From NCBI GenBank assembly GCA_021234155.1, contig JAJEKV010000039.1, positions 10,057,077 through 10,121,076 of the forward strand: a DNA stretch of 64,000 nucleotides, written 5' to 3'. The notes below the pieces were generated by a model that made no database searches, had not been told where the DNA came from, and saw only the letters and a program-made list of their open reading frames with translations. This document shows positions 6,236-64,000 of this stretch, piece by piece. A program made the translations under genes and the position numbers. Origin of the DNA: Isoetes taiwanensis. Lineage: Eukaryota > Streptophyta > Lycopodiopsida > Isoetales > Isoetaceae. How positions within the stretch are numbered: position 1 is the stretch's first letter; every line of letters begins with the position of its first letter.

Positions 6236-7223
6236 TTGCTCTTTTGAACTGGCTGTGTACAAACGTTCTCTCATTTACACCTCATGGTTATCCTGTAACC
6301 ATGACAACAAACCGCACCACCATCTTGTTAGTATTCATTAATTCACTACTTTGAAATAGCTACCTTATCATGTAGCGTTAAGGGGGTATGAAATGGAGAA
6401 TCTTTTTATTGATTACTACACCAGTTCAGACCTGCAGGTTCAGGGTCCTCAGTTTTAATACCATGCCATGTCTTCTGAATGATGGAAAAAAAGTGGCACT
6501 TTTGCAAGAGGGTACAGTCTTCAAACATTATTTCCCTCAACCATTGGCCCACCCATTCCAAAGATATCTGATCAAGCCCAGCATTTCGACAGGCAGTAAA
6601 ATGGTGGCTTCCAAGTTCTATTCATGCCCACTATTCCAACAATGAATATCTGATCACAACATTTTTGACAAGCAGCAAACGAATGGCAAAAGGTAGATGC
6701 AATTAATATAGGTCCAAAGGTTGCATAAATAGTTGAAAAGAATAGAGACGGCTTGTTGAAAGGCTCATGACTTCATTTTAAAAATTGGGACAGCAGATGC
6801 AGCCAAAGATTACAAACAGGTAACAGTGATTTTGGTTGAGGATATTGATGACTTGCTTTAATATCGACCTGCTTCCTGTTTACTCGTCTGTTTGTTACTG
6901 CCAATGCCAAAACCATCAGAACCACCGAAAAATAACCAAGTCTCAAGAACCAAACTACATACCCAGACAATCTAGACTTCATGATATGCAGGCAAGAAGC
7001 AGCTCCTCTGTGAAAGTCATTTATTCGCATGGTAGACAAAAATTCATTCCGTAAATAATATGGAGTGCCTATGCGCACAACATCCACATCCTCAGTAGCA
7101 TGAATATACCAATGAAGCATAGAAAACAAGTACTATTTCTTCAGCATGAGCCACTCCAGAAAAGACGGACATTTGTTGCAAGCTTCATATGCTTCATACC
7201 AACGAGATGTATAACTTATGACT
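6236..7223. other. No gene recognised
   Basis: This is unique sequence to the right of the duplicated block. Short frames exist on both strands but none shows family features. The right part may include the 3' UTR of the minus-strand SURP/CCCH gene. Confidence 0.5.
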
Positions 7224-47110: not shown

Positions 47111-47755
47111 GGTGGTGGAAGAAGCTGAAACCACCTTAAGAACTGAATGGGAACAAAGAAAGATCTTAAGGCAAAGTCAGAATGAGGAAACTCCAAAAGT
47201 CCTGGTTGTCAAAAAGAAAGAAAAAGTTGTGTGCTATAACTGTCATGAGTCGGGGCATTATAAAAATGAGTGTCCTAGGCTTAAGAGGGAGTTTAATTGC
47301 TATACATGTGGAGGGAGGAGGCATGTAGATGTCCAACACCTAAGAACTTTGGTAAATCAAGAGGAAGAAGAGAGCCAAGCAGAGGCAGATTTGGAAGAGG
47401 GAGAGGTCGAGGGCATGAAAAGGCTTATATTGCTCAAGAACAGGAAATTACTTCCAAAGGAGTTGCTGAGGATGAAGATGAAGATGAGGTAAATACTGAA
47501 TTCGCTGTAGTAAATGAAAGTATTGCTACTAATAAATCTGATCACTTGATAGTTGATAGTGGAGCTGAAAGATCAGTAATGCAGTCTACTGAGTTTTTGA
47601 AGAATATATCCACTACAAGTTCCAGAAAAATTCAAGTAGGGAATGGAGCTCTTCAAGAGGTGAAGGGTACTGGTCTATTACAGCTAGAAGATCTCAAGGG
47701 AAATGTTGTGAACATAGAAGATGTTCTGTGTGTGCCAGGAATAATAAAAATTTAA
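47110..47755 (+). CDS. copia gag C-terminal part and protease
   Basis: Resumes after the LINE with a charged segment, then a zinc knuckle, CYNCHESGHYKNEC (about 47233-47272), and a second Cys pair (CYTCGG). A shift near 47325 moves to the frame that carries an Arg/Gly-rich stretch and the protease (IVDSGAERSVM, Asp-Ser-Gly active site, about 47551-47583). The frame closes at 47755, where an A run (47745-47750) separates it from integrase. One extra A would join them. Confidence 0.85.
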
Positions 47756-48966
47756 TTTATGTCAGCCAGTTATGTGATTTGGGGTATCGAGTAGTTTTTG
47801 AAGGAGACAAATGTAATGTGTACATGAATAATGAATTAAAGTTTGTTGCTAAAAGGGTTGGAAATCTGTTTGAAATGAACAATGTGATGCATCATAATAT
47901 AAATGCAATACAAGAAGACAGTGTTGATCTGTGGCACAGAAGACTGGCATATACAAATTACAAAAATTTGAAATCCTTATTGAAGCAAGGCCACATAAAT
48001 TACCATGACAACAAGACAAATGAGTTCATCTGTGAAGGATGTGCCTTAGGAAAATTAAACAGACTGCCATTTCGTAAAAGCAAGTCTAGAGCTCAGCAAG
48101 TTCTAGAATTAATGCATTCAGACTTATGTGGTCCTTTAAATGTGCAAAGTAGAACCAACAAAAGGTACTTTATAACATTCACAGATGACTATAGCAGGAA
48201 GTGCAAAACATGCTGTTTAGAAAATAAATCTCAAGCATTGAGTGCGTTGAAACAATATGTGGCAGAGATGGAGAGAGAAACTAGTCTCAAACTGAAATGC
48301 ATTAGGTCTGATAGAGGAGGTGAATATCTTGCTAAGCAATTTAAACAATTTTGTATAGCTCATGGAATTAAAAGGCAGCTGACCTGCAGATATTCTCCTC
48401 AGCAGAACGGAGTCTCAGAAAGAAAGAATAGAACTATAATGGATGCAATTAGAGCCATGATAAAGGGAAGTGGTCTGCCTAATAAACTGTGGGAAGAAGC
48501 ATTATACACTGCAGTTCTAATACAAAATATGTTGCCATCAGCTAGTCTAAAGGGGAATATTCTAGACACTCTATGGAATCCAAATAAAAGGCTAAACTAT
48601 GAAAAGCTAAAGGCTCTTGGTTGCTTGGTGTATACTCATGTTCCAGCTGAGTTAAGGAAAAAGCTAGATAACAAGGCTGAAATAGGATTTCTCGTAGGGT
48701 ATGATGAGGAATCCAAAGGTTATAGAATATATGTTCCTGAAACTAAATCTGTCATAATCAGCAGGGATGTTTTGTTCAATGAGTGCATATTATACAAGGA
48801 CAGATATAAAAAAGAAGTCAAAACTGCCATAACAAAACCAGAGGTACAACTTAAGTTTGAAATAGATGATGCAGATGATAATGAAGAAGAAAATCTAAAC
48901 CCAAGTTTAACAGAAACAGAGGTTCCAGAGATGACAAAGCTGAGGAACAAGAACAAGAAGGATTAG
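47756..48966 (+). CDS. copia integrase
   Basis: Contains the zinc-binding start (LWHRRLAYTNYKNL and CEGCALGK), the catalytic core (MHSDLCGPL, TFTDDYSRK, QQNGVSERKNR: the D, D and E positions) and the C-terminal GYDEESKGYRIYVPE region with DVLFNE. The second His of the HHCC motif is replaced (RRLAY instead of the usual His), which would weaken zinc binding. It ends with TAG at 48964-48966, and RT follows in the next ORF. Confidence 0.9.
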
Positions 48967-48977
48967 GTGATCATCAT

Positions 48978-50558
48978 ATGAAGAAGAAAAAGAGGAAGAT
49001 TCAGGCAGAAAGATTAGTGGAGGAAGCAAAGCTAGAAGAAGGGAAACTATATGGTAGAAATGAATTAGGGAGAAGTAGAAGAGTTGTCACTTTTGAACAT
49101 GAACAAATTATGGCTATTTTAGAGGATGAAGTTGTTCCCCAAAGTTTTGAGGAAGTTCAACAAAGTAATGACAAAGATAAGTGGATAGCTGCCATGGATG
49201 ATGAGCTTAAATCTTTTCAAGAGACCAAAACATATGAGCTGGTTAAATCTGATGGTAAGCAGAACATAATTGGAAGTAAATGGTTGTATAAAATTAAATT
49301 AAACCCTGATGGAAGTAAGAAGTTTAAAGCAAGATTGGTTGCTCAAGGATACACACAGAAAAAAGGACGAGATTATGATGAAACATACTCCCCTATAGTC
49401 AAACTTACAAGCATTAGAGTTTTGCTAGCTATGGCCAATGCTATGAATTTAGAGCTCCACCATATGGATGTGAAAACTGCATTTTTAAATGCTACTCTTG
49501 AGGAGGAGGCCTATATGAAACAGGCTCCAGGATATTCACATGGTAAGGACATGGTCTGGAAGCTTAACAGGGCTGTATATGGGCTGAAACAGTCACCAAG
49601 AGAATGGTATTTATGTATAAATCATTTCTTGCAAGAATAGGGATTTGAGAAATTGCAAAATGATGGGAATCTTTACAGATTTGAGCAAAATGGAGAATAT
49701 TGCATTATTGCCTTATATGTAGATGATTGTATTATGGTTGCAAGCTCTTTGCAAATTCTGAACATATGCAAAGGTATTTTAAAATCCAGGTTCCAAATGT
49801 CAGACCTAGGTTAGCTCAAGAAGTTTCTTGGAATTGAGGTTGTCAGAAACAGAGAATTCACTAATGAGGAGGTTACTAAAGTGCAAAATGTGCCCTACAG
49901 AGCTCTGATTGGTTGCCTACTGTTTTTGGCAAATAATACTCGACCTGACATAGCCTATGCAGTCAACATTTTGAGCAGGAGAAATCATGATGCTATCAAA
50001 GAACATTGGGAGGCAGCTAAAATAGTGCTTAAATATCTAAAGGGGACTCAAACACATGGTATTTGTTTTGACTCAGAAGATCTAACCATGATCAGTTATA
50101 GTGATGCAGATTGGGGAGGGGATCTGCACACTAGAAGATCAACTTCTGGATATGCAATATTCTTAGGAGGAGGTGTGATAACCTGGAAATGCAAAAAGCA
50201 AACAACAGTAGCAATGAGCTCAGCTGAGGCTGAATCTGCTGCATCCTCTCTTGTTGCCAAAGAATTAGTATGGTTGAGAAGGTTGCTAAATGAAATAGGA
50301 TGTACACAACAAGGACCTACAGAAATCTGGACTGACAGCCAGAGTTGTACAACAATAGTTAAGAATCTAGTATATCATGATAGAACCAAGCACATTGAGC
50401 TAAACATGCATTTTATAAGAGATTTAGCTGAGAAAAAACTCATACAGATGACATATGTTGATACAAATAACCAGGTTGCAGATGTGTTCACTAAAGCCCT
50501 GCCAGAGACTAAATTTGCACAGAAAGGAATTAAATGTTGCAGAGATACAGACTTATAA
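48978..50558 (+). pseudogene. copia reverse transcriptase and RNase H, with stops
   Basis: RT runs from WIAAMDDELKSFQETKTYEL through KARLVAQGYTQ, YSPIVKL, HHMDVKTAFLNATLEEE and YGLKQSPREW to YVDDCIMVAS (about 49720). TAG stops interrupt at 49638-49640 and 49812-49814. About 70 residues are missing between GIEVVRNRE and VPYRALIGCLLFLANN. RNase H is intact (DADWGGDLHTRRSTSGY, MSSAEAES, WTDSQSC, TKHIEL) and ends at 50558. Confidence 0.9.
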
Positions 50559-55440: not shown

Positions 55441-56791
55441 TAATACAGGATTTTTAGTTGGTGCATCTTAATTTGAATTCTTTTATGTTGCTACATTTAC
55501 TAAAATATGTAGTGTCAATTATTCTCAAATTAAAGACAATTTAATAACATTCTATCACTTATCAAGTTATATAAGACATATATATAAGGGTTAGGGCATT
55601 AAATATAATAAGATTTATTAAGGTATTAATTAGTCCTTTAGAGCATTGAACATTTATGAGAAAAATATATTATATAATGTGATAGTATTCTATCTTTTCT
55701 CATGCTCTAAGTTAGTACACACCTATGTATTATTAACATATGCTAGAATGGTACTAAAAACCTGGAACTCGCACCTCAATAGAATATAAGGACAAAGAGG
55801 AGCTACGCCTAACATCGCCATCCACAAGTGGATATTCATCGACCATTATGTTAGTTCGTCAACGCCATTGCGATTGTTCCTAAACATTTGAGGCACTAGC
55901 CACTGGCAATGCCGCATGCACATTCCTAGACATTCGAGGCGCTAGCCATAATACACAAAATGCGTCCGTTGTAAATTAAATTTGATGGAGGATCGAGATA
56001 TGCTTGCTCTAATCTGATGGTGGAGATGGCTCCATTTTTTTTTTTGGCGTTGGCTCTCTAAAAGTCTATTCCTTGCCCTCGTATTCGTGGTTGGGGGAGG
56101 TGATTAAACATCGTAAAACCTTGAGTGAATGCAATGTAGCTACTCATCTACTTCTCATTCCATGGATCCTTTCATGCATTTAGTACATTAGAAATGCTGA
56201 GCTTGAGTTGATCAGCACTTTGACATAATCCAGGTTCATGAACATTTGCACAAATTCCAACATTAAAATTCCTTAAACTTTTAACACCAATCCAACATTT
56301 GCCTTTAATTTATGCTTGATGAAAAACCCAGCAACGCTGGACACTTTTTCTAGTATATTTATAAAAACTAAAGCTAGGGGCATTTGAGTCATCGTTTAAA
56401 TGCTAGGGGCTAACTTAACAGTTTTGATTCACCAAGATATTGCAACAGACTTTTGTAGATAAAACTAAAGCATTTAAGGGTAAAAGAAAGCTAGGGTGTC
56501 CTACATTTGGCCAAATGTAGAGTAAGAGATGTATCACATTTCAAATACATAACCGTTTTTTCAGTATATACATAATAGCTATATTAAGGAAGCTTTTTTT
56601 TTCGGAATTAATTGCCACGTCAACTAAAACGCAATCATGAAGCAGATTTCATTCCCACCGCTCTAACCACTCCAAGAAATGCCTGAACGTTAGGAGAATT
56701 TCCCACTTTCTGGCTAAAACTTCGCCCAGCTCCAGGATTTCCCTCCTTCTTGCCAGAATTCCTCCAGCTAACCCTAAACCACGCAAAGACC
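55441..56791. other. No gene recognised; short direct repeat
   Basis: A 26-bp imperfect direct repeat (ttcctaaacatttgaggcactagcca near 55877 and 55923) is the only structure noted. Confidence 0.4.
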
Positions 56792-57270
56792 ATGATGAAC
56801 AACGAAGGAACAGAAATGGCGCAAGAAGATTGCAATATCGGGAATGTGACAAAGAAAATGAAGCGTAAGATTGATGAAATTGTTAAATTTATATATGATC
56901 AGGTTCAAGATTTACGTCATGTGCAAAGGAGAGCTTTAGCAGTGAAAACTGTTCGGGATGAAAGGCTGCACTTCTTTTTTGAACCTACCATTGGAAATCC
57001 AGCGCAAGCAATTGTGAAGGATACTATGCTACAAAATATCCGTGAAGGTTTGCAGGAAGTGAAACAAGCAAATAGCAATGATAAATTAGTAGCTAACCTA
57101 TTGTTGGTGAGAATAGAAAACTCAAGCAAAAAGGAGTAGCCTCCAGAATTCTTCAAGTGCAAGCAAGAAACCTTCAAAAGATGCAATTGTCATTATCAGG
57201 TGCTAACATGTGGGCACTGTCAGGAAGACAACCCAGGGAAGACATGCTTCTGGAATCAACCAAATACTCG
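56792..57270 (+). CDS. Helical protein with GRF-like zinc-finger end (in-frame TAG)
   Basis: ATG at 56792. The first 110 codons are charged and probably helical (KMKRKIDEIVKFIYDQVQDL, TMLQNIREGLQEVKQANSND). After an in-frame TAG at 57137-57139 the same frame continues with FFKCKQETFKRCNCHYQVLT, CGHC and NPGKTCFWNQPN. This is a Cys/His cluster with a GRF-type end (zf-GRF binds nucleic acid and is common in transposon-linked plant proteins). A splice donor (CG/GTAAATG) closes the exon at 57270. TAG may be a CAG mutation. It may be the 5' exon of the transposase-like gene at 59934, but the phase does not fit directly. Confidence 0.5.
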
Positions 57271-57698
57271 GTAAATGATTTTTGGTTAACCCACACAAAA
57301 ACTTCTCCAAAGTACAGGGATGTCAGGAAGACTCCAATCCAGTTTTTGGACATGTCCTAGGTCAACTTTAAGTCTTTTAATCCTCTTTGTTGCAAGCTCG
57401 ATAGAAGCTAGCTTCTGTGCACCCTGGATAAGTTTAGTAATCCTATTTGCATTCCATGCAAGGGATGTATCTGATATACATTGAAGTACATCCAACTACA
57501 ATAGTTATATTTTTACACTTGGAGGTATTGAATGAGCTATGTTTAACAGGAAAAGTATTGGATGTACTTCCAATTACATCCAATGTGGCAGAAGGCAGAA
57601 AATGTGTTGAAAGTTAGACTGTGTTTTTATAGTCTCAATTTTTGTAGTTCCCAAGTACATGCTAGTACACTCTGAGCTTTCCTGATCTCAAGATACCC

Positions 57699-58160
57699 TT
57701 TTTTTTTTTTTTTGAGAGAGAGAGAACGAAATTTTTTGTATTTTTATATAAGGAAAGTACAATGCTTCAGCACAATAAGAGAATTACTACAGGAGCATAC
57801 TCAACATCTTCATTCTCTTATGTGTAGAAACTTATTTACTGCTCTGCTCTGATAGCTGATAATAAACATTAGGCATAAAAAATCTCTCCACATCGAAACC
57901 AAGGTTTACCAGATGATCCAAAGAGCAACGGTCTTCCAAAAAGAATCTTATTCCGAACAACACACAGATAACCTGAATCACTGAAAATATACGGAAGTTG
58001 CATGACTCCTGGTCTATATGACAACATCCAAATAGAATATAAATCAGGCATATCATTACCTGATGAAGCATTACACTCAAACATGGCAGTATTTGAGCAA
58101 CCAAATCCGACTGGATGGTATGAAGATATTTTGGCATCAGTACCAAAATGTCACTCAATT
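57699..58160 (-). mobile_element. Possible minus-strand retroposon 3' end (poly(A) plus GA tract)
   Basis: On the minus strand a TCTC-rich tract precedes a 15-nt A run (57699-57713), as at a retroposon 3' end. Upstream (57832-58158, minus) a frame reads FSDSGYLCVVRNKILFGRP and KPWFRCGEIFYA without recognised domains. The element type is undecided. Confidence 0.35.
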
Positions 58161-58197
58161 TTCAGTAATTGAGTGGCATTCTCAAGCATAATAGTAC

Positions 58198-59010
58198 TTG
58201 AAAATGCAACCAAGATGCTTCAAAGATAGTGCTAAGATATTCATTCAAGAAGAGCTAGGAGTCAGAAAGCAAATTCCTTATGCTATATTACCGGGTCAAA
58301 CCGGTCTCAGTGCATTGCCTCCGGAAGAAAGGTTTATATGTCATTTCATTAATTTTGTGAATAGACTAAGGAAGATGGATGATAATAGGCTGCCGAAAAT
58401 GGCAATGGAACATTCGGGTACCTTGGGCTGGTATCACAATGTACTTGAATGGGTTAAGAGTCAGGGGTTTTCGGATGCAATTTTTACCGACTCAATTAGG
58501 GTTAGGAGATGATACTGGGATCAGGGTAGTCGAGAAAGATTTGGGCGATAAGGGCACTAGGATGACATTCTATCAGCAGGAAGTAAATCCTATGTTGGTA
58601 TATATGCACCGTAACTATCTAAATGCACCTATGTCCGGGCATATGAGATACATTATTGCTAGGTACGGGATGGGATCACATTCTCTAGGGATAGAAACAG
58701 GAGATGGGCTCGAATACTTTGAGAAGAAAGAGTTTGCGAGAATATGCCGGTCGGGGAGGTAGAAACCGAGGATCACGTTTTTATACATTGCAGTGCTTAT
58801 GAAGACATTAGAGAGAGACACAACATTGCATATCCAGATTTTCATTTACTTTTGTCGTTAGATCCTAGAATATTGTGTAGTTTCTTAAAAGATGTCGATT
58901 CTCATCGAGACTTGTTGATAAAAGTGAACACGTGATGTAGTTAGTTGCTCCATGACCTTCAAGGTCCTTAAGGGGCATGATAATAAATTATTATTATTAT
59001 TATTATATAT
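58198..59010 (+). mobile_element. LINE C-terminal fragment with (ATT)n tail
   Basis: Reads SGHMRYIIARYGMGSHSLGI, FARICRSG and, after a shift near 58750, EVETEDHVFIHCSAYEDIRE. The C-x2-C...H-x4-C knuckle closes many LINE ORF2 proteins. Stop at 58933, short 3' UTR, then an (ATT)n tract (58985-59010) as tail. The 5' part is missing. Confidence 0.7.
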
Positions 59011-59599
59011 TGAATGCTGTCATACATCCTATTGTCTCTACTGCTTCAGCATAAGATTAATAAATCAAGACTCACCTGTATATTTCCTCTAACAAGAATC
59101 TTTCTGTTCATCACTTGTAAAACCTGGATCTTTCTGCTAGTAAGAAAGATTGGAAAGAGATAGGCCATAGATGGATGGCATTTCCAGAAATCAGATTATA
59201 ATATCCCTTGTAGATGGAATAACAGAAACTTCTTTACCTGATCTTGCAACTTTCGTCTTCACCTTATAGGTCGGCATCCGTTCTGGATCTACCATTTCGG
59301 TGTGTCTAAATCCAAAGAAATAGCCATAGTGCAAAAGCACCAAAGATAAAAACCACGTTAGTGGATACCTTAGCAAGATTTGCCGCCGAAAAGAAGAATC
59401 GATATAACATCCATCAGATCTTGTGTTCCAATTCTGAAAAGTCTACCCAGCATGCCCTGCTAGCATCAAATCCTCTTCGTTTTTCCTCAAGAGATTCCGC
59501 TGTGATGGCCTAGGCAAAGAGACAGGGCGGCCGCTGCCCTAGCCCGCCAAGAACAGCGCCTGCGCCAAGAACGGCATCCTTCGTTCCATCTCAAGATAC

Positions 59600-59820
59600 T
59601 GTTGAAAGATAGGGTAATACATAAAAGTATTTGAATGTACTTCTCTCCATAAGAAAAGTATTGAATACATACATCTGTAACACAGTGACACTATGTATGA
59701 CCTGGTTACATATTGAGTTTTGTATGTACATCTGGAATGCATTGGAGTACATTCTCTACATATTTATATACATATCATGTACATAATATGTACGATGTTG
59801 TATTATAGTAGTTGAATGTA
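59600..59820. repeat. GTAC-rich cluster upstream of the transposase-like gene
   Basis: At least five GTAC-centred words (gaatgtactt, tatgtacatc, gagtacattc, catgtacata, tatgtacgat) in about 220 bp. Similar words cluster at 57480-57665 and 63910-63965. They could be subterminal transposase-binding repeats. This is inference from spacing only. Confidence 0.3.
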
Positions 59821-59933
59821 TATCAAATCATGGCCTGACTGCCATAGAGTTAATGCAATGTCTGCAACATCCTTGAATTCGTAAGTAGTTTTAATTTATG
59901 TTTCACTTATACATGCCGCTTTTTTCCTTGCAG

Positions 59934-61730
59934 AGTGAATTGTATGAGATGTTCAAAGATGAACATCCTGAAGTGAAGATTAGCGTCAGAATGTTCGAGT
60001 TGCTTAAGCCTACATGTGTGAGAAGGTTGAAAGAGAGGAACACATGCTGTTGCATGAAGCATGGACAAGCTGAGTTATACAGAAAAGCATTTAGCGTCCT
60101 AAGGGGTAAATTTCATGCCAATTGTACATGTTCTTGTGGTGTTTGTGCAGCAGATAAGAACAATGGCGTTTGCCAAGCTCCTTCTAAAACATTTCAAAAT
60201 GTTAGCGCTATATGGAGAGCTACGGTCTGTGACAAGGAAGGCGAAGAGTGGCATAGTTTGGACCGTGTCAAGGGAGAGTGCCAGAGCTGTGGCACTGAAA
60301 ACATTCAAATTTGTCCTAAGAAGAAAGAGTCGCAGAATGAGAACATTGAATGGCAAGTTTACAAGTGCATGAACGAACCTTCCAAAGCTGGCACTTCAAG
60401 GAGGCTGAAGCTTGTTACTGAAAGCGGGAGTCCAGGTACATTGCTTGACAAGATGTTTCATCACCTTACAAAGTTCACTATTCACAACTTTTCAGCAAGT
60501 TGGCAGAGCAAACAATTCAAGAAATCAGTGCAAAATTTGAGGGATGATTCTGTTTTGTCAGTAATGGACTTTGCAGAGAACTATACTTTGCAGCCACTCA
60601 AGGAGATTTAGTCCGAGCATGGGAACAATGACCAGATAACTATTTTGGTGCATATAACCATGGTGAAAGTCAATGGCGAGCACCCATTTTGAACGATGTT
60701 ATGAAGCATGATGCTTTCTTTGTTCAGGCTGCACTCAAGAAACACCATACTTGGATGATGCAAAAAAGTTTTGGCCACATCAAATACCATGTCATGTGGT
60801 CTGATGGGTGTGCTGCTCAGTTTAAGTTTTCTCGAGCCTTTTATTTGAATATGGCCCAGTATTATAACAGGTATAGAATTAGGATGTAGTGGAATTATTT
60901 TGGCTCAGGCCATGGGAAAGGAGAACATGATGGGCAAGCTGCTTTGGAGAAAAGGTGCAGACGAGCAAAGGAAAGAGAATGGTGTTCCAATTTTGAGTGC
61001 CAACTCTGCTTGTAGTTTGCTCAGACAAAAGAAGTACAAAAAGGACAAGGTCATATGGGAGGCCATGGCAGAAGACATTAACAGGGACCCTCGTTCAGCT
61101 TCTGAGACATTGCCTGGTACTCTAGCTATACATTGTGTGTCTGCTATTAATCCAGCTAACCCAACACTTGTCATGTATAGATCTCTGTCATGTTTTTGCA
61201 ATGGTTGCTTGAATTTCAGATGGGGAGAATGTGAGAATCTCCAGCATTGTGGTGCGTGGAAGCTGCACAAACTAGAGCCTAGTTCGACCCAGGTTGAAGA
61301 ACAAGAAGAGTTAGTTGGTTTTTATGCAGCTGATGAGCAAGAACTATCCGAAGTACTCCAAATTGGAGACATATTTGCATCTTTTGCTGCTCCAGGGAAT
61401 CATGAAAATGTTCTATACTTCGTCCTCCTATGCGTGAAGGAGACGCATATTCTTCAGGAAGATGTGATTGACGACTATAGGAATAGAATGCTTGCTGATG
61501 ATAGGGTTATAGCCAGTCATTACTATCAACTGCTACAAGGCACAAACCACAAGTACAAGTTGTTGGATGACAAAATAGTATTGGTACCGGCTGAATCTGT
61601 AACTGGAGCAAAGTTCACCATGCAGCAGGTCAAGCATAAGTTGAAGGGGGCATATACAGCATATATGATCACACGAGAGGTGCATGACATGCTTATATCA
61701 AGCCTACCTGAGATTGTTGAGTGCACATGA
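59934..61730 (+). pseudogene. DDE-like transposase gene of an unnamed family
   Basis: The exon begins after tttttccttgcag (59921-59933). In order: ELYEMFKDEHPEVKISVRMF, Cys-rich blocks (CCCMKHGQ, CTCSCGVC, CQSCGTENIQIC), VMDFAENYT (about 60562-60590), WSDGCAAQFKFSRAFY (about 60798), WNYFGSGHGKGEHDG (about 60890), then CFCNGCLNFRWGECENLQHC and a 150-residue C-terminal part ending at 61730. The D in MDFAENY, the D in SDG and the E/D in HGKGEHDG could be a catalytic triad (inference). Lesions: TAG at 60609-60611, a shift near 60660, TAG at 60887-60889, a shift near 60950. I recognise the motif set from multicopy transposon-like proteins but cannot name the superfamily. Confidence 0.65.
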
Positions 61731-62236
61731 CTAAGTTCTGTACAAAGGAACTTTTATATTTGCCATCATCTTCTGTTATGTTGAGAAAACTAGTCGATTG
61801 CTGCAAGTTTTTTCTTATTTTCTTATTTTTTAGTCTGAAGTGCATTTTGATACTTCAATTTCAGTATCACACAATATCTTCTATTTCCAAACACAATGTA
61901 AATCAGAAAGTACAAAATGTTCATCAATTGTTGCATCAAGAAGTTAAACTATTCTGTGAACTTGTTCTGTTATAAAGGATATCAATAGCTTTTCTTTTGA
62001 TTGATGAAACAAAGCAGAAAGTGCAACATGTAGATCGATGTATGGAGACAAAAACTCTTGTATTAGATATCACAAGATATACAACCTGGTCACAGGAGAT
62101 ATGAAGCCAATATATACAAGTCTGTTGTTCATGTTTTATATTAACATTAAATTACATTCAAAATCTGGTCACAGCCGATGTGAAGCCAGTATATACTTTT
62201 TTTGTTGTTTCAATATGTTACTTTCTTGCAGCTTGT
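61731..62236. other. Space between convergent transposase-like and FCP1-like ORFs
   Basis: Contains a short direct repeat: ctggtcacaggagatatgaagccaatatataca (about 62087) and ctggtcacagccgatgtgaagccagtatatact (about 62165). No ORF is supported. The sequence holds the 3' ends of both genes. Confidence 0.4.
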
Positions 62237-62882
62237 TCATAGCCTGTTGTAGCCCTGTGAAAGCATTTGCCTCCAGACAGCTATTGTTAGTACATCGGTT
62301 GGATTGTGTAAAGGATTTTGCTTCACATACTGTTGCAGGTCTGGTGCTATCAACAAACCCTCTAGCCATGGTTTCAAAAGTGTCAAGAGACCTGTGTCTT
62401 CCACATCTTTTTCTTGCCATGAAGGTGGGCATATGCAATTTTCGTTGGGATTGAAAAGCATCTTGTACTCAGAGTCGTCTACTATTAGTGTGTTGCTCTC
62501 ATTTCTGTCTGGATACTTCTCGTATATAAACTCAATTGGCTTCAGATACAAAGGTTATCTTCAGAAGCTGCAATCCGGAAAGGCAACTCCAAACAGTGGC
62601 TTCCATCAAAGGTAAATCTTAAATCCCTTATCTGCGTCATTGTGAAGATTTTATCCACTACTCTTGATAGGTTCCATGGAGCTATTGATGACCATATACC
62701 TACTTCAAAGTGTTCAAATACAAATCTAAGGAATTCGTCTAGGTGGGGCCTTAAAAACAACACTTTCTTGCCTATTATGTCATAGTTTCCAACTAGCAGA
62801 TCATCTGCTATCAAAGTCCTATCTATTTGTTTTGCCAAAACATTATTGATATCAAACACTATCAATCTTTTTTGTACACGTG
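62237..62882 (-). CDS. FCP1/NIF-like HAD phosphatase domain protein (one frame break)
   Basis: Exon starts after tttcatag (62883-62890). Motif I is LIVFDINNVLA. The block VGIWSSIAPWNLSRVV matches the HAD/FCP1 second motif. After a frame break near 62545 come PIEFIYEKYPDRNESNTLIVDDSEYK (motif III/IV with the D-D pair) and LEGLLIAPDLQQYVKQNP, the usual FCP1-domain end. Stop at 62237. FCP1-type enzymes dephosphorylate Ser/Thr, classically in the RNA polymerase II tail. Motif I here is D-x-N instead of D-x-D, so activity is doubtful. It may be cargo of a mobile element. Confidence 0.7.
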
Positions 62883-63019
62883 CTATGAAAGAACATGCAA
62901 TTTATCAATAAAGTATGGCGGAGTCGAATAAAAAGAAATTTTATTCATTAAAATTCAATGAAAAAATGTATATTTTATAATCAAATAGTGTTTAGCAGTG
63001 AAAATGGGGATAGGCTTTC

Positions 63020-63723
63020 TCAGCCAGATTTACTAGTACCAGGTGATCTAATGGTTTGGGGTGTGATGTGAATGTGGTCTAACTCCTGAAGTAGTGCTCG
63101 GATGAGAACATCACGACTATCCTCCGCATACTTTGGCAAGAACCAGTTTCGAGTAATCTGTAAATGTGACAACAATAGTTACATAATAAGTATTGGAAAC
63201 TATTTGTTTGCAAGACAAAAGGCATGAGACACTCATATTGGTAGTTTTATCACACACGATTGTGTCTACAAACTTCTGCATATAAGCTGTAACATAGAGG
63301 CCACATGAATCCCCATCTTTCTGCTGTGGACACTTATGAAACTTCACAATTGGTGAAGAGTTTTATCCATGCTTCTGTAAACATGGATGTCATGGACTTC
63401 TCAACTGATGTACCCTGAAATAAAATGCTTTCTTACCTGTTTCTACTGGTTTAATTTTCTTCTTCTGTGCCTTTTTAGGCGTGGACTTCTTCTTTGGAGT
63501 CACATTTTTTCTGCTGCCTTTACTTTTCCAGATGCGGCCTTAGCCTGCTCTCTCAATCTCTCGAGTTCCTCGTCATAATCTGGAATGTCACCATGCACAC
63601 TTGAAGTGCCAGCTTCCTCAACCTGTATCACCGTAGGAATAGTGAGTTTGCTTTTTCCTTCAATCACTGCTTTCTTTCCCTCGGCTACATCTTGCACCTC
63701 AATTTTTTTTGGAACCTCCAAAA
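63020..63723 (-). CDS. Ulp1-like (C48) cysteine protease, C-terminal exons
   Basis: Three exons on the minus strand. 63437-63723 is Lys-rich, with AEKM then, in another frame, NVTPKKKSTPKKAQKKK; it ends at ACAG/GTAAGA. About 63222-63365 carries CPQQKDGDSCGLYVTAYMQK, the Gln...Cys active-site block of Ulp1/SUMO proteases. 63020-63157 encodes ITRNWFLPKYAEDSRDVLI and ends with TGA. The catalytic His and Asp must lie upstream, perhaps beyond the window. An A run at about 63505-63510 breaks the first exon and one more A restores it. Ulp1 domains are often carried by plant DNA transposons. Confidence 0.6.
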
Positions 63724-64000
63724 CTATGAAAACCGAACCAAGAATATGAAATTGCTTCTTCCGACACAATGCAAAACAATTTCAAAACAAGCGCACCTGA
63801 TCTGTGGTGTAATTTCTGCTCAGTTGTTTATTTGGCACTTTGAAGCTTTGAAAATAAATCGGCACATAACAGTCAGATATCCGTCTCTAACTATTCTGTT
63901 GAAAAACAGCAGTACATATTACTAGAATTGATCTACATTGAAGTACTTTGAGTACATATACATGTAAACAGCTATTTATCTAGACGGAATGTATATGTAA
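63724..64000. other. Right window edge, GTAC-rich, no gene recognised
   Basis: GTAC words at about 63912, 63944 and 63951. The protease gene's upstream exons are expected further right, outside the window. Confidence 0.35.

Follow-up and report, generated by a model that had tools for sequence, protein, structure and literature searches.

A Sola-like transposon of Isoetes taiwanensis with a probably conserved second gene of RING-like, Ulp1-like and FCP1-like parts

In a 64,000-nucleotide stretch of contig JAJEKV010000039.1 of Isoetes taiwanensis (hereafter the window), an earlier note had proposed one large DNA transposon at 56792-64000, combining a transposase gene with FCP1-like and Ulp1-like open reading frames (ORFs). 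We find here a repeated unit of ~9.0 kb in which two convergent coding regions, a putative transposase on the plus strand and a region with RING-like/coiled-coil, Ulp1-like and FCP1/NIF-like parts on the minus strand, occur in all 12 complete copies compared. It is almost certain that this region is a mobile element, and the minus-strand region belongs to it. On balance, we favour a cut-and-paste transposon with terminal inverted repeats (TIRs) and Sola-like anatomy, whose second gene (gene 2) would be a conserved accessory factor, possibly one that counters host silencing as VANC does. Gene 2 is very probably a conserved working part of the element; an anti-silencing role for it, argued by analogy, is a more tentative proposal.

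Results

The genome searched comprises 1.66 Gb, and searches with pieces of the region found it to be repetitive. The ends of the element were read by aligning copies retrieved from the genome against the window extended rightward: it spans from window position 56478 to position 1937 of the extending piece L001, 1,861 bases beyond the window's right end. Relative to the extent first proposed, the element starts further left and ends further right. Searched with at most two mismatches, its 23-bp TIR gave 282 forward and 254 reverse matches (536 altogether), against none for the reversed control. When neighbouring plus/minus pairs within 40 kb were counted among 100 listed exact sites, 27 pairs emerged, of which 15 span 8.5-9.6 kb, one is of 5.4 kb and 11 are longer; the FCP1 motif pattern lies inside 26 of them, the 5.4-kb unit being the sole exception.

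The 12 complete copies are mutually 87-96% alike. Five, the window copy included, had been picked for their transposase and FCP1 DNA, and the other seven by size from the 15 TIR pairs, their content being unknown at that point. Transposase, FCP1, Ulp1 and RING/coiled-coil queries match all 12, and order, spacing and TIRs are common to all, except that the N-terminal half of Ulp1 is unmatched in the window copy. Exact 4-bp duplications flank 11 of the 12 copies (L019 deviates, with GCAA/TTAA), and their target sequence is not fixed. For MULE (Mutator-like element) and VANDAL transposons, duplications of 8-11 bp are the rule. TIRs and a duplication enclosing a transposase gene, in many copies, place the element among the TIR DNA transposons (class II). 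The idea of one large transposon holding transposase, FCP1 and Ulp1 is thus borne out, since all three lie between TIRs and a 4-bp duplication and are present in each of the 12 complete copies. Neither transposase copies consistently without FCP1 and Ulp1 nor termini between them were found, as the 12 copies and 26 of the 27 TIR pairs attest.

On the plus strand, the three motifs by which the transposase had been recognised are indeed present: MDFAENYT at 60564-60587, WSDGCAAQFK within 60794-60826 and GSGHGKGEHDG within 60899-60934 (all converted from element coordinates). The gene is interrupted in the window copy, its ORFs being 59898-60611 and 60900-61730 and its matches falling in different frames. 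Across seven aligned transposase exons, the Asp of WSDG is kept in all seven, as is HGKG, with HDG following in five; DFAEN(Y/F) is seen in three, the rest starting later or being degraded. Scans of Pfam, NCBIfam and PDB gave no meaningful match for the transposase, with none to a Gypsy-integrase domain at Pfam E values up to 1 and none in Pfam to the MULE transposase domain, so we infer a DDE/D transposase from the acidic motifs, their conservation and their place inside the TIRs; which of its residues would be catalytic is read, with the same caution, from the sequence. Beyond the plant genome, no relative was confirmed, either in viral contigs (queried with the transposase exon, the transposase alignment and the FCP1 domain) or among prokaryotes, whose genomes were queried with the transposase alignment. 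A GRF-like zinc finger, once thought to lie upstream, has to be given up: Pfam scans gave no such match, the cysteine-rich HANCTCSCGVC is a portion of the transposase exon, and the upstream stretch is mostly the nested insertion listed in Table 1.

The minus-strand parts run, from the 5' side, as a coiled coil and RING-H2-like finger, charged linkers, an Ulp1-like domain and an FCP1/NIF domain, the last being convergent with the transposase just as the earlier note had it for an FCP1/HAD frame. Pfam recognises NIF with E values of 6e-7 and 5e-8 for two window ORFs and 1.3e-17 in copy L002, and in other families (introduced below) with 3.8e-21 (L032), 2.2e-21 (L033) and, under the cut-off, 1.6e-3 (L026); among PDB sequences this part matches the CTD small phosphatase-like protein 2hhl (5e-6) and UBLCP1 3shq (2e-5). 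FCP1/NIF phosphatases share the catalytic motif DxDx(T/V), whose second Asp is the usual general acid. Four aligned families depart from it, reading DIN, DLQ, DLN and DLN, and the weak FCP1 match in L024 also reads DLN.

As for the Ulp1-like frame, its motif-bearing remnant is present in the window copy, with the CPQQKDGDSCGLY motif kept at 63294-63332, whereas the other half of the domain has been deleted at 63375, where 1.0-1.1 kb holding that half in other copies is missing. Most of the 12 copies retain EHHTL and KDGDSCG. Peptidase_C48 (PF02902) reaches E 6e-4 for one exon and 9e-4 for two joined exons over residues 69-225 (19.5 bits), the scores of 19.5-20.1 bits lying just under the cut-off of 20.7, and the sole PDB match is a weak one, to 6gzu (E 0.05-0.18). 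By the residue roles generally given for Ulp1, the I.I.NS motif of the window family and of L025 has Asn where Asp is usual; some cysteine proteases have Asn in place of Asp. The RING-like/coiled-coil part lies outside the window and was absent from the earlier note's inventory. Its zinc finger reaches Pfam E 1e-4 (22.4 bits against a cut-off of 27), and seven of its Cys/His positions, candidate ligands of a C3H2C3 finger, do not vary among four families, with Pfam scores under the cut-off. In copy A2 (L002 joined with L013), GT...AG signals are present and a start codon is wanting ahead of the FCP1 motif; we infer that the gene-2 exons would be spliced into one protein.

The ratio of non-synonymous to synonymous differences (pN/pS), compared over six frames in 11 segments of the 12 copies, is lowest in the coding frame in eight segments. 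It stands at 0.49 for FCP1 (next frame 0.51, a small margin), 0.47 and 0.53 for Ulp1, 0.45 for the coiled coil, and 0.50 and 0.57 for the transposase ends. We treat these values as supporting evidence only, because pseudogene decay blurs the signal.

GTAC-rich clusters had been described at both edges. The clusters are real and exceed shuffled expectation, whilst their place is internal to the element and not at its edges: they are arrays of ATGTACAT palindromes in DNA of non-coding look. GTAC density in A2 reaches 11 per 600 bp, against a maximum of 7 in 100 shuffles. Clusters of ATGTACAT-like sites occur in all 12 copies (A2 positions 1040-1431 and 6785-7033). At their densest they reach five to seven sites per 450 bp in 11 copies, and three in the window's own copy, whose left array is split by the nested insertion. 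For comparison, window positions 1-56400 contain nine such sites in total and at most one per 450 bp, and 200 shuffles gave at most three (A2) or four (L024) per 450 bp. L024, a member of another family, has three clusters with up to 11 sites per 450 bp, and 8 of its 29 spacings are of 10 or 11 bp. In both the window family and L024, one array stands just ahead of the main transposase exons and one 5' of the Ulp1 part of gene 2. Outside coding stretches, A2 and L024 align over only 37-39 bp, inside the arrays, so the two have the arrays in common and not the flanking DNA.

The pairing of transposase and gene 2 recurs beyond the window family. A WSDG..A..QFK pattern omitting that family's codon gave 539 genome matches (control 0), and eight variants from 100 listed places were retrieved (L024-L031). 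Transposase queries match all eight: identity is 27-76% over the pieces and mostly 28-56% over the longer of them, and across the other families at large mostly 23-57%; in a core alignment, five of them together with L032 are 38-46% identical to the window family. Gene-2 domains appear in five of the eight: by first-pass phmmer, FCP1 in L026 (3e-9) and L024 (1e-5), Ulp1 in L025 (5e-9) and weakly, for the other half, in L024 (0.01), and RING in L028 (8e-4) and weakly in L031 (only 0.17), the best control match standing at 0.29. A PPR-like stretch, under the cut-off, is also seen in L028 and, with a PPR gene beside L034 (below), points to a land-plant genome.

The reverse approach retrieved three NIF matches of 77-85 bits. 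In L032, FCP1 is convergent with a transposase, and in L033 with the C-terminal part of one, the core being outside the 5 kb read; with L024 and L026, this makes four loci at which FCP1 adjoins the transposase. The third, L034, is a host FCP1-BRCT gene next to a PPR gene and keeps DLDHTL, which rules out that all NIF matches of 65-85 bits are transposons. When 150 listed NIF places were set against 138 for the L032 transposase, 17 pairs emerged at distances of 387-759 bp, every one convergent, and one more at 6,967 bp, with 0.5 expected within 20 kb; the 17 pairs are copies of one family, one of them at the query's own locus, and not 17 independent origins. The 62 best NIF matches, ordinary host genes among them, contribute no pair. 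Among the FCP1 matches of 65-80 bits, many show stop-free frames of ~200-350 codons, and some of these may be host genes. PF02902 matches above the cut-off on contigs C257 and C908 are convergent with transposase motifs 2.6 and 2.8 kb away.

Two side observations concern these domains. Among 52 listed PF02902 matches, 25 have 91-codon open frames, C908 being one of them and C257 having an 86-codon frame, which we take to mean that another family of the transposon group has amplified an Ulp1 exon. On C1018, between 22.9 and 26.8 Mb, 12 strong NIF/FCP1-type matches (>140 bits) fall within 4 Mb, and host phosphatase genes appear to have multiplied there.

Table 1. Positions of the element's features and of the nested insertion, in window coordinates unless marked otherwise
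Feature	Position	Strand	Remark
Left TTAA target-site duplication	56474..56477	.	right copy at L001 1938-1941
Left terminal inverted repeat, 23 bp	56478..56500	+	right TIR ends L001 1937
Probable transposase 5' coding part	56750..57139	+	A2 frame pN/pS 0.58, lowest of six, next 0.62
Left ATGTACAT array, first half	57484..57660	.	converted from element coordinates
Nested insertion, foreign to element, with poly(A)	57696..59587	-	ATCTCAAGATA 11-bp duplication, copies at 57685-57695 and 59588-59598
Left ATGTACAT array, second half	59635..59784	.	past nested insertion
Transposase coding region, cysteine-rich C-terminal part	59895..61727	+	interrupted in window copy; MDFAENYT, WSDGCAAQFK, GHGKGEHDG
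Intergenic minisatellite, one unit, ~181-185 bp	61774..61958	.	copy comparison
FCP1/NIF-like domain, first motif FDINNVL	62213..62901	-	split over two frames; convergent with transposase
Ulp1-like domain remnant, QKDGDSCGLY motif	63082..63386	-	other half deleted at 63375
Gene-2 linker region	63376..64000	-	gene runs on beyond window
Coiled coil/RING-like part	~64286-65742 (window-equivalent; L001 ~362-1818)	-	outside window

The nested insertion is excluded as a part of the element: it is missing from all eight compared copies (L002-L009), and it has poly(A) and an 11-bp duplication of its own. Its relatives L010-L012 have a similar poly-T start and direct repeats of ~10-12 bp by eye, and together with it make up a retroposon family of ~1.1 kb. 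Within this nested retroposon, in turn, a repeat of ~778 bp is inserted (58235-59012), of which at least 11 further near-full-length copies exist at 84-93% identity. The number of minisatellite units between the convergent genes varies: the window copy has one, L002 two and L017 three (L017 3485-4031). Elsewhere in the window, ORFs at 47297-50558 resemble the integrase, reverse transcriptase and RNase H of a Copia retrotransposon, as judged by eye.

Discussion

How might such an element work? The plus-strand transposase would cut at the TIRs and insert with a 4-bp stagger. The minus-strand gene would give one spliced protein, consisting of a coiled coil with a RING-H2-like finger, a charged linker, an Ulp1-like cysteine protease domain and an FCP1/NIF-like domain. 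This protein would most likely bind the element's own ATGTACAT arrays, and from there could alter the SUMO or ubiquitin marks of host chromatin or transcription factors, and perhaps phospho-protein contacts as well; the outcome would be an escape from silencing, as VANC achieves for VANDAL elements. Gene 2 has been kept over long divergence, seeing that it recurs in other families. We could go further and posit that plants have, besides VANC, another anti-silencing system with sequence specificity that evolved independently. In it, a conserved gene 2 with RING-like, Ulp1-like and pseudo-phosphatase-like FCP1 parts would recognise ATGTACAT arrays, spaced at near a helical turn, in non-coding DNA of the element itself, and would strip or rewrite SUMO/ubiquitin marks there on the machinery of silencing or of RNA polymerase II; this stronger form strikes us as rather doubtful.

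Several points weigh against an anti-silencing gene 2 encoded by a working element. Not one copy was seen to keep both genes clearly intact, though not every copy was checked, and activity of the element is accordingly unproven. The FCP1 domain may lack phosphatase activity, which is in doubt because Asn or Gln replaces the second Asp of DxD, and the Pfam scores of the Ulp1 and RING parts all fall below the cut-offs. Gene 2 showed no DNA-binding domain that we could identify, and its reading as one protein relies on splice sites judged by eye in a single copy. In three of the 11 segments, the coding frame does not have the lowest pN/pS (transposase core 0.46 vs 0.42, linker 0.81 vs 0.66, RING exon 0.67 vs 0.51). 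Three of the eight transposase-selected families (L027, L029 and L030) showed no gene-2 domain within ~5.3 kb past the motif. In the fetched pieces, L025, L026 and L028 have at most three to four ATGTACAT-like sites per 450 bp, and dense arrays were not found in those of L027 and L029-L033 (at most two sites); as they are dense only in the window family and L024, the arrays are not shown to be general. Finally, weak Ulp1-like pieces (E 1e-4 and 0.01) at L033 4303-4972 stand on the transposase strand, upstream of the C-terminal part, and could mean that Ulp1 has moved between genes, or that L033 is a hybrid or a transposase-Ulp1 fusion.

That transposase, FCP1 and Ulp1 are separate transposons or host genes adjacent by chance can be set aside as having virtually no likelihood: nested insertion does exist in the region, yet order, spacing and TIRs are alike in 12 copies, and 26 of the 27 TIR pairs enclose the FCP1 motif. 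A passenger status of gene 2, as functionless fragments of host genes picked up in a single capture, is also quite improbable. Captured fragments, Ulp1 included, are described in plant transposons in the available text of PMC13317346, and the copies whose reading frames were listed are damaged; against this, gene 2 is met again in families whose transposases have diverged strongly, the convergent pairs keep similar spacing, the right frame has the lowest pN/pS for FCP1, Ulp1 and the coiled coil, and many of the 65-80-bit FCP1 matches keep the long open frames noted above, with the same proviso about host genes.

The main competitor of an anti-silencing factor is a role of gene 2 in transposition itself, its Ulp1-like, RING-like and FCP1-like domains working on the transposase complex, or on host repair where the element is excised, and the arrays serving to bind either the transposase or gene 2 itself as a cofactor. 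Gene 2 does recur beside the transposase, Ginger1 offers a precedent in its Ulp1/OTU domains (PMC2836005, as far as the available text goes), and the Ulp1-like pieces of L033 fit here too. We nevertheless find this somewhat unlikely, with the arrays lying 1-2 kb inward of the ends and not at the TIRs, and gene 2 undetected in three of the eight families. The arrays could also be unconnected with gene 2 and serve a host transcription factor of the SBP-box type as promoter or enhancer sites, GTAC being the core of SBP-box factor sites. Their palindromic sites, and the 10- or 11-bp spacings in L024, would suit such a factor; their apparent location in introns or between genes would not, nor would their not being seen in the fetched pieces of the FCP1-bearing L032 and L033, an observation that weakens the link to gene 2 as well. 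We regard this explanation as unlikely.

Should gene 2 indeed act against silencing, such systems would have arisen more than once, and another sequence-specific tool for epigenome editing would be at hand. A single genome that holds several families, arrays of motifs and TIR sites by the hundred makes it possible to address which host process is edited for transposon survival. Here, the Ulp1-like domain is joined to RING-like and FCP1-like domains, and the parts of gene 2 recur across far-diverged families. In the open-licence literature, we found no description of a transposon combining an FCP1, NIF or phosphatase domain with Ulp1 (weak evidence, as Repbase lies outside that scope), and, among the 10 listed of 21 papers on Sola with Ulp1, none relevant by title.

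Comparison with known systems

By its ends and anatomy, the element is Sola-like and may belong to that superfamily. Sola elements have 4-bp duplications, TIRs, lengths of 2-9 kb or more and an acidic-triad transposase, and are reported in the moss Physcomitrella whilst seeming uncommon in flowering plants, according to the accessible parts of PMC10741241 and PMC9033089; accessory genes such as Fanzor1 are possible in Sola2 (PMC3627910, likewise partial). The Isoetes element resembles them in its 4-bp duplication (11 of 12 copies), TIRs and size (PMC10741241), and perhaps in its acidic motifs, and differs in its RING-Ulp1-FCP1 gene, which did not come up in the literature searched.

Plant transposons that are not related to one another repeatedly have Ulp1 domains (PMC13317346). 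In Ginger1, the same kind of domain (or OTU, or PHD) is tied to the transposase: all listed transposases but one have Ulp1 or OTU at the C-terminus, and a role in transposition or repair has been proposed (PMC2836005, in its available portion). There, however, Ulp1 is the transposase's own C-terminus, and the Gypsy-integrase domain has no counterpart found in the Isoetes element. The FCP1/SCP/UBLCP1 phosphatases are akin to gene 2, which belongs to the NIF family by Pfam and matches 2hhl and 3shq in PDB, yet gene 2 has Asn or Gln as the second residue of DxD, whereas the host relative L034 has DLDHTL and a BRCT domain.

The VANDAL elements of Arabidopsis, with VANC and KIU, share with our element a transposase accompanied by a second gene, an Ulp1 domain (in KIU) and non-coding motif arrays (PMC5735166, PMC13317346, each in part). 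VANC target motifs form dense tandem-repeat arrays upstream of VANA and in VANB/VANC introns, by the accessible text of PMC5735166 and PMC10398659, and some VANC genes (KIU) bear an Ulp1 domain whose precise function is called unknown (PMC13317346, same portion). VANDALs, however, are non-TIR MULEs, whilst the Isoetes element has 23-bp TIRs and 4-bp duplications, with no MULE domain found; the VANC motif is unlike ATGTACAT, and RING and FCP1 parts go unmentioned for VANC in the available text of PMC5735166 and PMC13317346. VANC is nonetheless the closest working parallel, of which gene 2 would be an analogue by function and not by descent.

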